A program made the translations under genes and the position numbers. Under the pieces are notes generated by a model. It made no database searches. It saw nothing but the letters and a program-made list of their open reading frames with translations, and was not told the DNA's origin. A stretch of 36,411 nucleotides of DNA from a virus, in IMG/VR virus record IMGVR_UViG_3300022198_004043, positions 1 through 36,411 of that record. One strand, 5' to 3'. This document shows, piece after piece, positions 13,236-21,788 of this stretch. Position 1 is the first letter of the stretch, and every line of letters starts with the position of its first letter.

Positions 13236-13829
13236 TTAGTTTGCATTTGGCACAACAAGGTTCATATTCCGAAAAGGAACCTCATACGGAAATATTATCG
13301 CCACTGCCCCTGTACCCTTCGCAGGTGAAGCCGCCATGAATATTGTTGCGGTGAATAGTGACCCATCACTTCTTCTTGCCTCCTTACAAACCAATCCATG
13401 CACCCCAGATCGCCTCTCCATTGCCTTGTCGTAAGCTTTTCTATGATCAGAAATAACGCTGGAATCCATTAAATCCTCAATACACATTGAGAAATAATCC
13501 AATCGATTATAGTTAAACATTTCCGCCGCATTATCGTTCCACCAAGTCAATCTATGGGAGTCATCCGCATGCACTATGCCAGCTCCTACGCTCTCCAAAA
13601 TAGATACAGTAAGATTCTGCTTGTGGGCCAAGTCTGTGAGTTTTAATTCCAGTTTAGCAAAATGCCTCTCTTGCGACTCCCTTACATCACTTGGCTTTGT
13701 TTCACTCTCATAGAACCCTATGGCCGTAAAACAAAGTAAGATTGCGAGCATTACTAAAATAACACCAAACATAACCTCTCTCTTGAGGCTACTTTTGTTT
13801 AGTTCAGAAAAAGGTGTTTGAGTTTTCAT
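13236..13829 (-). CDS. Membrane-anchored PAS-domain protein
   Basis: A 197-residue protein from ATG 13829; a longer frame exists upstream, but it overlaps the preceding gene and encodes implausible Cys/Arg-rich sequence. Residues 19-40 form one hydrophobic membrane segment (MFGVILVMLAILLCFTAIGF) preceded by a basic stretch. Residues 41-75 are a charged helical linker. Residues ~76-181 match a PAS fold: ILESVGAGIVHADDSHRLTW, WNDNAAEMFNYNRL, SDHRKAYDKAMERRSG, RRSDGSLFTATIFMAA, GAVAIIFP. PAS domains sense ligands, redox, oxygen or light, or mediate dimerisation. No kinase, cyclase or other output domain follows. The positive-inside rule would put the PAS domain outside the cytoplasm, but the charge bias is weak. 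It overlaps the 88-residue membrane protein by 26 bases, so the two are probably made together. Confidence 0.7.
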   Translation of the reverse strand: MKTQTPFSELNKSSLKREVMFGVILVMLAILLCFTAIGFYESETKPSDVRESQERHFAKLELKLTDLAHKQNLTVSILESVGAGIVHADDSHRLTWWNDNAAEMFNYNRLDYFSMCIEDLMDSSVISDHRKAYDKAMERRSGVHGLVCKEARRSDGSLFTATIFMAASPAKGTGAVAIIFPYEVPFRNMNLVVPNAN

Positions 13830-14070
13830 TTTTACGCTTCCAGTCCTTGTATAAGTCCTCAAGCTCTTTGTGGACCTCCTCTGGCGACATATTCCCCAGC
13901 CTACCAAAGAACAATACTGCCGATATTTGAAACTTCTTACATTGCGTGTAGTCCTTCCACAGCCATCTGAACACAAACGCCAGCAAGGCAATAAGTATAA
14001 CCCCAACAATTATCAGTAACTTTGCCGCCGAAACATCCGTCTCTAATATCTTGATAAGAAATTCAAACAT
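13804..14070 (-). CDS. Small single-pass membrane protein paired with the PAS protein
   Basis: 88 residues from ATG 14070; an in-frame start 60 bases upstream is possible, but its extra N-terminus looks non-coding. A hydrophobic segment at residues ~15-36 (AAKLLIIVGVILIALLAFVF) is followed by a basic/aromatic boundary (RWLWKDYTQCKK), predicting a cytoplasmic C-terminus. The tail is helical and charged (SPEEVHKELEDLYKDWKRKN). The 3' end overlaps the PAS gene start by 26 bases. By size and position among tail genes it could be a holin or lysis-related protein, but the long charged tail is unusual. No conserved lysis motif was seen. Confidence 0.6.
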   Translation of the reverse strand: MFEFLIKILETDVSAAKLLIIVGVILIALLAFVFRWLWKDYTQCKKFQISAVLFFGRLGNMSPEEVHKELEDLYKDWKRKNENSNTFF

Positions 14071-14141
14071 CGCCAATTTTAATAAGGATGAATATGTGCG
14101 ACCAAGGAATGTGACCCTGGCCGCACACATGCAAGATTGAA

Positions 14142-17752: not shown

Positions 17753-18675
17753 TATATCACATTCCCTCCAATTACAGTGGCCTTTGTTGGATCCCTGGAT
17801 TCTGTTGCACGCATACTGTGTCTGGTAATATCCTTCCAGGTTGTGAATATGTGCCGCCTATCTCTTTGGTATTCTGACATGATATTCCTGTAGCCAACTT
17901 CATCCTTGTCAATTTCCCTCGAAAGATGAGCTTTTATGTACAAAGAGCAAGCCCGGGCTTCCCTGATTGTGAAAATTGTTTCATCTCCGTCATGAAGATC
18001 CGTTTCCCAGTATTGCGTCTTTTGGTAGGTCTGGATCCCCGTTCCTTCGATAATCAGCTTCTCATCAACACAAAGCTTTGGATAAAGAATGAAGCCATCA
18101 TCACCAAACGCTATGGAGTTATGACACCTCCCGTATGATGACTCATTTAATATGTGGCGTTCATTCCAAGGGATCCTATCCACCTCACGGTACTGGCTCA
18201 CTTTAAGATCATTGTTATCAAAAGGGAATCTACGAATAAGAATCCTGCTTATCTCGTGGTTGGGAATGGTAACTCGTCCAGTATGTGCACCATCATGTGT
18301 TTCAGCGAGGACATTTATCCTGAACCAGTTATCCGGATCATCCCCGGGAAGACTGCCGCCCTCATCCACATCATGGTAAGACTGAAACACAGGTGTCCCA
18401 AATTTTTCCGCAGATCTCATTAAGACACCTCCAGTCTCCACAACTACAATGGATCCTTTTGCCCATGCTTCATGCGTTGTCCAAATTGAAGGCTCAACGC
18501 TACTCCATGTCACTATCTCAATATCTCGCAAGGCTGACACAAAGTCCTGTAAATCGACAATAGCTGCTCGTGCCAATTGATTGATGTAGGTTTGAATCCG
18601 CTTACCCTTACGAACCGCATCATGCAGGAGCAAATCCCGCATATCTTCTTTGAAATTTCCCCAAGTATATTCCAT
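17752..18675 (-). CDS. Head-tail adaptor / tail tubular A-like protein
   Basis: 307 residues. The N-terminal part (KEDMRDLLLHDAVRKGKRIQ, then TYINQLARAAIVDLQDFV) is helical, like the helical bundle of podovirus adaptors. The middle is β-rich (GFILYPKLCVDEKLIIEGTG), and the C-terminal part (EARACSLYIKAHLSREIDKD, then EVGYRNIMSEYQRDRRHIFT) gives another helical hairpin. This helix-β-helix order resembles the T7 gp11-type ring between portal and nozzle. It follows the capsid gene group and precedes the fibres, as expected. Assignment rests on layout and fold-like pattern, not a clear signature. AGAGG lies just upstream of the ATG. Confidence 0.5.
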   Translation of the reverse strand: MEYTWGNFKEDMRDLLLHDAVRKGKRIQTYINQLARAAIVDLQDFVSALRDIEIVTWSSVEPSIWTTHEAWAKGSIVVVETGGVLMRSAEKFGTPVFQSYHDVDEGGSLPGDDPDNWFRINVLAETHDGAHTGRVTIPNHEISRILIRRFPFDNNDLKVSQYREVDRIPWNERHILNESSYGRCHNSIAFGDDGFILYPKLCVDEKLIIEGTGIQTYQKTQYWETDLHDGDETIFTIREARACSLYIKAHLSREIDKDEVGYRNIMSEYQRDRRHIFTTWKDITRHSMRATESRDPTKATVIGGNVI

Positions 18676-19112
18676 TACCTGCCTCTCGGTACTGCGTAGA
18701 ATCCGACTATTGTTGACATTATTTCTGTAAAACTATGCAGGAGTAATCCTCCAGATATTGTTACCACATGAAATTCTTTACCTGAACCAAATAGGAATGA
18801 CATTATTCCCCCAGACAAGTCCTTTTTCGGAACAATTATGTCGAAAGATATATGTGGGTTTTTCCCGTAATAGATCACCATGTAGCAATACGTTGCCGTG
18901 AGCATACAAAAAAGGACACGCCTGGTAAGCTGAACAAACGGGTCTTTGGCATTCTCCCTTGCTATTTCCGCTTGCACCTTACGCACCTCTGCGTCCTTTA
19001 AGGCACTATTGCGATCAGCGGCCCCCTTACGTTCGATCCAGCCATTTACGATATTGGACACAAGCTTAATGCCTGCACCAACCGCAATATTTGTTACCGC
19101 ACTCCCCAGCAT
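18675..19112 (-). CDS. Membrane protein, holin candidate
   Basis: 145 residues. The N-terminal ~25 residues are amphipathic or weakly hydrophobic (AVTNIAVGAGIKLVSNIVNG), followed by a charged helix (SALKDAEVRKVQAEIARENA). Two hydrophobic segments follow (about 66-82, LFCMLTATYCYMVIYYG; about 116-141, VVTISGGLLLHSFTEIMSTI). The amphipathic start, long charged helix and two C-terminal membrane helices recall a family of phage holin-type proteins with a GxxxGxxxR-rich lead. A structural membrane role cannot be excluded. It is sandwiched between head genes, starting 6 bases after the upstream stop and ending one base into the adaptor start. Confidence 0.45.
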   Translation of the reverse strand: MLGSAVTNIAVGAGIKLVSNIVNGWIERKGAADRNSALKDAEVRKVQAEIARENAKDPFVQLTRRVLFCMLTATYCYMVIYYGKNPHISFDIIVPKKDLSGGIMSFLFGSGKEFHVVTISGGLLLHSFTEIMSTIVGFYAVPRGR

Positions 19113-19118
19113 TGTTGG

Positions 19119-19496: not shown

Positions 19497-19531
19497 CTTT
19501 TGTCTTATATGTGTCGTGTGATTAAGGTTGA

Positions 19532-19578
19532 GTTCGACAGGTGCGGGAGGTAATCAACCCCCCGCACCTTCATCGAAC
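19532..19578 (-). terminator. Strong long hairpin just after the capsid gene (no U-tract)
   Basis: In the minus-strand transcript two arms of 12 bases pair around a 5-base loop (arms 19557-19568 and 19540-19551). One pair is G·U in this strand, whereas the plus strand would have an A·C mismatch, so the structure suits minus-strand RNA. A further 6-bp outer stem (GTTCGA/TCGAAC, 19573-19578 with 19532-19537) lies beyond a small internal loop. No run of U follows, so it may be a processing or mRNA-stability element, or a weak terminator, rather than a classic Rho-independent one. Confidence 0.6.
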
Positions 19579-19603
19579 ACATAAGGTTGGGGTAATGGCG
19601 AAA

Positions 19604-21583: not shown

Positions 21584-21664
21584 AGTATTTTAACATTTCA
21601 GCCTCAAATTACCACATATCGAAAAAAAACAACGAATATTCGCATTTTCGTCATACTTTTTACA

Positions 21665-21702
21665 AAAACTGAAAATCAGGACTCAGGACTTAAAACTGAA
21701 AA
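21665..21702. repeat. Direct repeats in the scaffold-capsid gap
   Basis: AAAACTGAAAA occurs at 21665-21675 and again at 21692-21702. Between the copies CAGGACT is repeated in tandem (21677-21683 and 21684-21690). This lies between the terminator and the capsid start, where a promoter or regulatory site is expected. I could not identify convincing -35/-10 boxes here. Confidence 0.6.
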
Positions 21703-21705
21703 CCT

Positions 21706-21774
21706 CCCACATATGCACCCACAAAAAAAGGGGAGCCTCCTTTTATAGAGACCCCCCTCCGTCTGGTATGTGGG
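21706..21774 (-). terminator. Rho-independent terminator with flanking alternative pairing
   Basis: On the minus strand, downstream of the scaffold stop, a stem AAAAGG/CCTTTT (21726-21744, with an inner G-C pair) is followed by a run of seven T (21729-21723). Outside it, CCCACATA (near the scaffold) can pair with TATGTGGG (towards the capsid), arms at 21767-21774 and 21706-21713. CACCCAC/GTGGGTG gives a competing pairing nearby. This could end or attenuate transcription before the capsid gene; the larger fold may regulate it. Confidence 0.55.
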
Positions 21775-21788
21775 TGGAGAAAAATTAC

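Follow-up and report, generated by a model that had tools for sequence, protein, structure and literature searches.

A membrane-anchored PAS protein and an overlapping small membrane protein encoded among the virion genes of an IMG/VR virus

Described phage PAS proteins are few, and the literature yielded one, VqmA, which acts as a transcription factor. In phage VP882 and its relatives VqmA contributes to the choice of lysis (PMC8284805, PMC12802170). In phage T4 the holin T is paired with the antiholin RI, a regulator directed to the membrane or periplasm (PMC8385771, PMC11413866), and the superinfection-exclusion proteins SieA of P22 and gp15 of HK97 are examples of lineage-specific inner-membrane proteins of phages (PMC10883804). 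Among bacterial proteins, the combination of membrane anchor, helical linker and PAS domain is that of sensor histidine kinases such as AtoS, WalK/VicK and PnpS.

In the present study a 36,411-base IMG/VR virus record (IMGVR_UViG_3300022198_004043, hereafter the window) was analyzed, in which a first-pass annotation made from the letters alone had pointed to a membrane-anchored PAS protein (P0001) and a small membrane protein (P0002). P0001 has the layout of the sensor histidine kinases, which are also its best profile matches, but carries no kinase or other output domain and is encoded by a phage late gene. With VqmA, a cytoplasmic receptor and transcription factor with a helix-turn-helix (HTH) domain, it shares the PAS domain and perhaps also the purpose, yet not the architecture, P0001 being a membrane protein without HTH. 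RI of T4 differs in having no PAS domain, while the pairing of P0001 and P0002 as regulator and holin is one that we infer; we know of no sequence relation between RI and P0001. SieA and gp15 resemble P0001 as lineage-specific inner-membrane proteins, and we know of no exclusion protein of their type that carries a PAS domain. No phage PAS protein of the kind of P0001 was found in the open-access literature searched.

The PAS protein and its overlapping partner

The gene of P0001 (13236..13829, minus strand) encodes 197 amino acids (MKTQ...PNAN), arranged as an N-terminal tail, a membrane helix at about residues 19-40, a helical linker at about 46-72, the PAS domain at about 75-184 and a short C-terminal tail. 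The single membrane helix is strong (Kyte-Doolittle 2.93 over 19 residues). The PAS domain (residues 75-184; 13278..13607, minus strand) is supported by Foldseek matches and by two profiles above their curated cut-offs, PF00989 in the Pfam scan (25.7 against 22.6 bits) and TIGR00229 (25.6 against 22.9 bits), and it is complete. All profile matches fell on PAS families or on the PAS part of kinase models, none on a kinase or other output domain, and the chain stops about a dozen residues past the PAS domain. Models of Cache/PDC extracellular sensors gave no match, the Pfam scan returning PAS families only, and neither an HTH nor another DNA-binding domain was detected, for which the protein has no room. 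The description of P0001 as one anchor plus a PAS domain with no output module, and the profile search proposed to verify it, were thus borne out. The proposed structural check gave a divided result: a single-sequence model of residues 66-185 displayed the PAS element order (two strands, helices, three strands) and its Foldseek matches were overwhelmingly PAS/LOV proteins at a probability of about 1.0, but its pLDDT was 47 and the best E-value, 2e-3, was not below 0.001. The full-length model was uninformative at pLDDT 52. A role of H129 as a FixL-like haem ligand was considered but is not claimed.

The first-pass annotation had suggested from the charges that the PAS domain may face outside the cytoplasm. 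Four positive and two negative residues precede the helix and three positive and five negative ones occur in the 15 residues behind it, a net charge that favours N-in with the PAS domain outside and a pattern that is the opposite of the one known from sensor histidine kinases. However, within 15 residues of the helix the positive ones number three on either side, and PAS domains of the PF00989 type are normally intracellular (PMC4822843), so that an outside position is only weakly indicated. The topology of P0002 reads C-in. The orientation matters for the idea of a decoy in host signalling, in which the anchored PAS domain would pair with a sensor kinase or a cyclase of the host and block or bias the signal during infection. 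Such a role would suit best PAS matches that are the membrane kinases AtoS, WalK, VicK and PnpS and a layout like the sensor half of such a kinase with its output missing, but it requires a cytoplasmic PAS domain, contrary to the net charge, would come late for host reprogramming when encoded by late genes and leaves the small partner unexplained, and we regard it as unlikely.

P0002 (13804..14070, minus strand) is an 88-amino-acid protein (MFEF...NTFF) with a single helix (Kyte-Doolittle 2.96 over 19 residues) and a charged C-terminal tail. In this it resembles holins, which are small and have one to three helices and a charged tail, although such features are not specific. Both genes share the 26 bases 13804-13829, as had been noticed at first reading, and the ATG of the PAS gene lies within the small gene, as does a Shine-Dalgarno-like GGAAG read from the sequence at 13837..13841 (minus strand), 7 nt upstream of that ATG; the translation of P0001 and P0002 is probably coupled via this overlap. 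Before the small gene no clear Shine-Dalgarno motif was seen, and its codon usage is uninformative (z 0.5, with other frames scoring higher). In Markov simulations of local or late sequence an ATG open reading frame (ORF) of at least 85 amino acids arose by chance in 0.7-1.1% of cases, and none (0/4000) combined this length with a helix score of at least 2.5. A chance ORF is very unlikely, and the gene was taken as real because of its helix, the overlap and its position.

A modified spanin pair, one of the functions considered at first reading, could draw on the i-spanin-like start of P0001 (an anchor followed by a helical stretch) and on the overlap with its neighbour. It was rejected: neither protein has a lipobox, that strand holds no embedded lipoprotein ORF of at least 30 amino acids, and a globular PAS domain is not a feature of spanins.

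Genomic setting and distribution of the pair

The pair is situated on the late strand between virion-type genes, in agreement with the virion-operon position first assigned to it. A second contig, IMGVR_UViG_3300025646_000096, carries both genes with 100% protein identity; its DNA is 99.99% identical to the window over the 14 kb compared, and it is the same virus, which supports the linkage of the two genes but is no case of independent evolution. Beyond the window the same virus encodes an ATP-grasp protein of the R2K clade (L028:857-1786; PF14243, 39.2 bits, above cut-off).

In three late intergenic stretches the predicted folding is far stronger than in shuffled sequences, namely in those on both sides of the capsid-like gene and in the one before the pair. 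The latter forms a strong RNA hairpin (14089..14133, minus strand; -27.9 kcal/mol, z -5.95, 0/200 shuffles as good; z -5.0 in a second test), which is probably a processing or attenuation point between a 409-amino-acid gene and the pair. Upstream of the capsid-like gene the hairpin (21584-21788, z -4.7) is terminator-like with a U7 run; the downstream one lies at 19497-19603 (z -5.6). No sigma-70-type promoter for the pair rose above shuffle level.

The window belongs to a large clade of uncultured viruses. With the TerL, portal and capsid-like proteins as queries, over 100 contigs of IMG/VR and two contigs of an archaeal metagenome-assembled genome (MAG) were collected, mostly at 48-66% identity; named phages gave only remote matches to TerL (about 26-29%). 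Some of the more than 100 IMG/VR contigs of the clade are near 73-81 kb. The two MAG contigs (L025, CALIKS010000067.1; L026, CALIKS010000046.1) represent two different clade members in one MAG labelled uncultured archaeon, which reflects either a link to the host or binning contamination. Upstream of their terminase genes relatives encode a small single-helix protein of about 104-165 amino acids (L020:1123-1620, L021:676-990, L025:5017-5334, L014:158-541), and several of these proteins end in a similar GWHW or GLHW motif.

The first-pass annotation had proposed to look for the gene pair in related phage genomes and had named its absence from all of them as counter-evidence. PAS profiles run over about 50 related records (G002, then ten and then forty records, G009 being in both latter sets) found no PAS protein outside the window, which is the outcome named as counter-evidence; the absence is strong only for the longer records, as many are fragments. 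One sub-threshold match of 12.3 bits in G019, in an open frame among DNA-metabolism-like ORFs, was dismissed as spurious. No relative of P0001 or P0002 was found by phmmer over 2.35 Mb of loci, by scans of IMG/VR, the second contig excepted, or by tblastn against phages; against plasmids, where alone cellular homologues were sought, tblastn with the PAS protein gave weak bacterial PAS matches only.

Because no PAS protein occurs in the approximately 50 related records searched, the pair is accessory. Its absence in relatives speaks against a conserved core role in injection, such as the membrane complex envisaged at first reading, or in lysis, but not against a lineage-specific replacement. 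A virion or genome-injection membrane component would accord with the location between virion-type genes, but none of the relatives with shared structural genes has the pair, which makes such a component improbable.

An accessory status would also fit moron-type cargo, in which the two membrane proteins would keep out superinfecting phages or change the envelope of the infected cell and the PAS fold would be a binding domain. The pair occurs in one virus and is absent in its relatives, its membrane proteins are located in the tail-gene region, it is set off by the hairpin, and inner-membrane exclusion proteins are known, HK97 gp15 being a moron (PMC10883804). Against this, no promoter of its own stands out, the codon usage of the PAS gene resembles that of late genes (z 3.5), and the small gene that is missing elsewhere in the window (see below) is left unexplained. 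We further know of no exclusion protein with a PAS domain, and consider moron-type cargo a serious if somewhat unlikely alternative.

The post-capsid membrane cassette and a possible replacement

In relatives of the window two predicted membrane genes follow downstream of the capsid-like gene, a small one (48-57 amino acids, or 74-84 amino acids in a coiled-coil form) and a larger one (144-169 amino acids). All 32 comparable relatives, i.e., those with both anchor genes, have the small gene: in 29 a small membrane ORF was picked up by a script, for the other three (L066, L068, L151) the ORF lists show one, and these lists also contain the actual member of the family in L025 and L134, for which the script had listed other ORFs. 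In the window the order is capsid-like gene, a 125-amino-acid soluble gene, six bases and a 145-amino-acid membrane gene. The latter (18675..19112, minus strand) encodes the retained two-helix membrane protein of the cassette, 48-49% identical to a 146-amino-acid gene of L022/L023, and the junction before it (19113..19118, minus strand) consists of 6 bases only, where the 32 relatives carry a gene of 48-84 amino acids.

Proteins of the cassette are small, with one or two helices and basic tails. Unimolecular spanins combine a lipobox with a C-terminal helix. The product of the second cassette gene in two relatives (L014:13397-13831, L021:13366-13809) likewise begins with a lipobox-like stretch (LVSSC, LFTSC) and has a membrane helix at its C terminus, in the slot that in other relatives is occupied by a two-helix protein. 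Since this second gene of L014 and L021 is laid out as a unimolecular spanin, the comparison suggests that the post-capsid cassette may serve lysis; no endolysin was recognised among the proteins scanned, so that a function of the cassette in lysis is likewise one that we infer.

The pair is found 5 kb downstream of the cassette. Clear small membrane genes are confined to the post-capsid cassette in the mapped late stretches of relatives, and the tail-fibre region of the window, with two small membrane genes, is the sole such case among the mapped late stretches. A homology of P0002 to the 74-84-amino-acid family was considered and discarded (1.5 bits, with 90/500 shuffles equally good).

The explanation we favour, tentatively and at a probability of about 0.35, is that the missing small membrane (holin-like) function is provided by the pair, in which P0001 would be an anchored regulator. 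In this reading the pair is an accessory module of the inner membrane that is expressed late in infection; the 88-amino-acid protein would take the place of the small holin-like one that is missing, and P0001, as membrane-anchored partner, would tune the 88-amino-acid protein in an antiholin-like manner by binding a ligand or another protein. In favour of a replacement are the lack, in the window, of a small post-capsid gene kept by 32/32 comparable relatives, the occurrence of such membrane genes in the tail-fibre region of the window alone, the lysis-like look of the cassette, the holin-like size and charged tail of P0002, and the anchored P0001 with its complete PAS domain and no output. 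Against it stand the occurrence in one virus only, the distance of 5 kb from the cassette, the want of homology between P0002 and the 74-84-amino-acid family and the failure to recognise an endolysin; confidence is modest because of the single virus and the lacking homology to the missing family. The literature searched did not reveal a PAS-containing holin regulator. The missing small membrane gene speaks indirectly for the sensor of lysis timing envisaged at first reading, but not for one that is part of a conserved lysis core, the pair being absent in relatives. A more specific version, in which a holin-like protein under its own membrane-anchored PAS sensor has replaced the ancestral small gene and lets a chemical, redox or energy signal set the moment of lysis, is doubtful, and the probability left over from the readings weighed here belongs to something else.

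Here a virion operon combines a membrane-anchored PAS protein and a small membrane protein, and the virus is the only clade member without the usual small membrane gene. Whether phages link a classical bacterial sensor domain to the disruption of membranes can be tested concretely on this pair.
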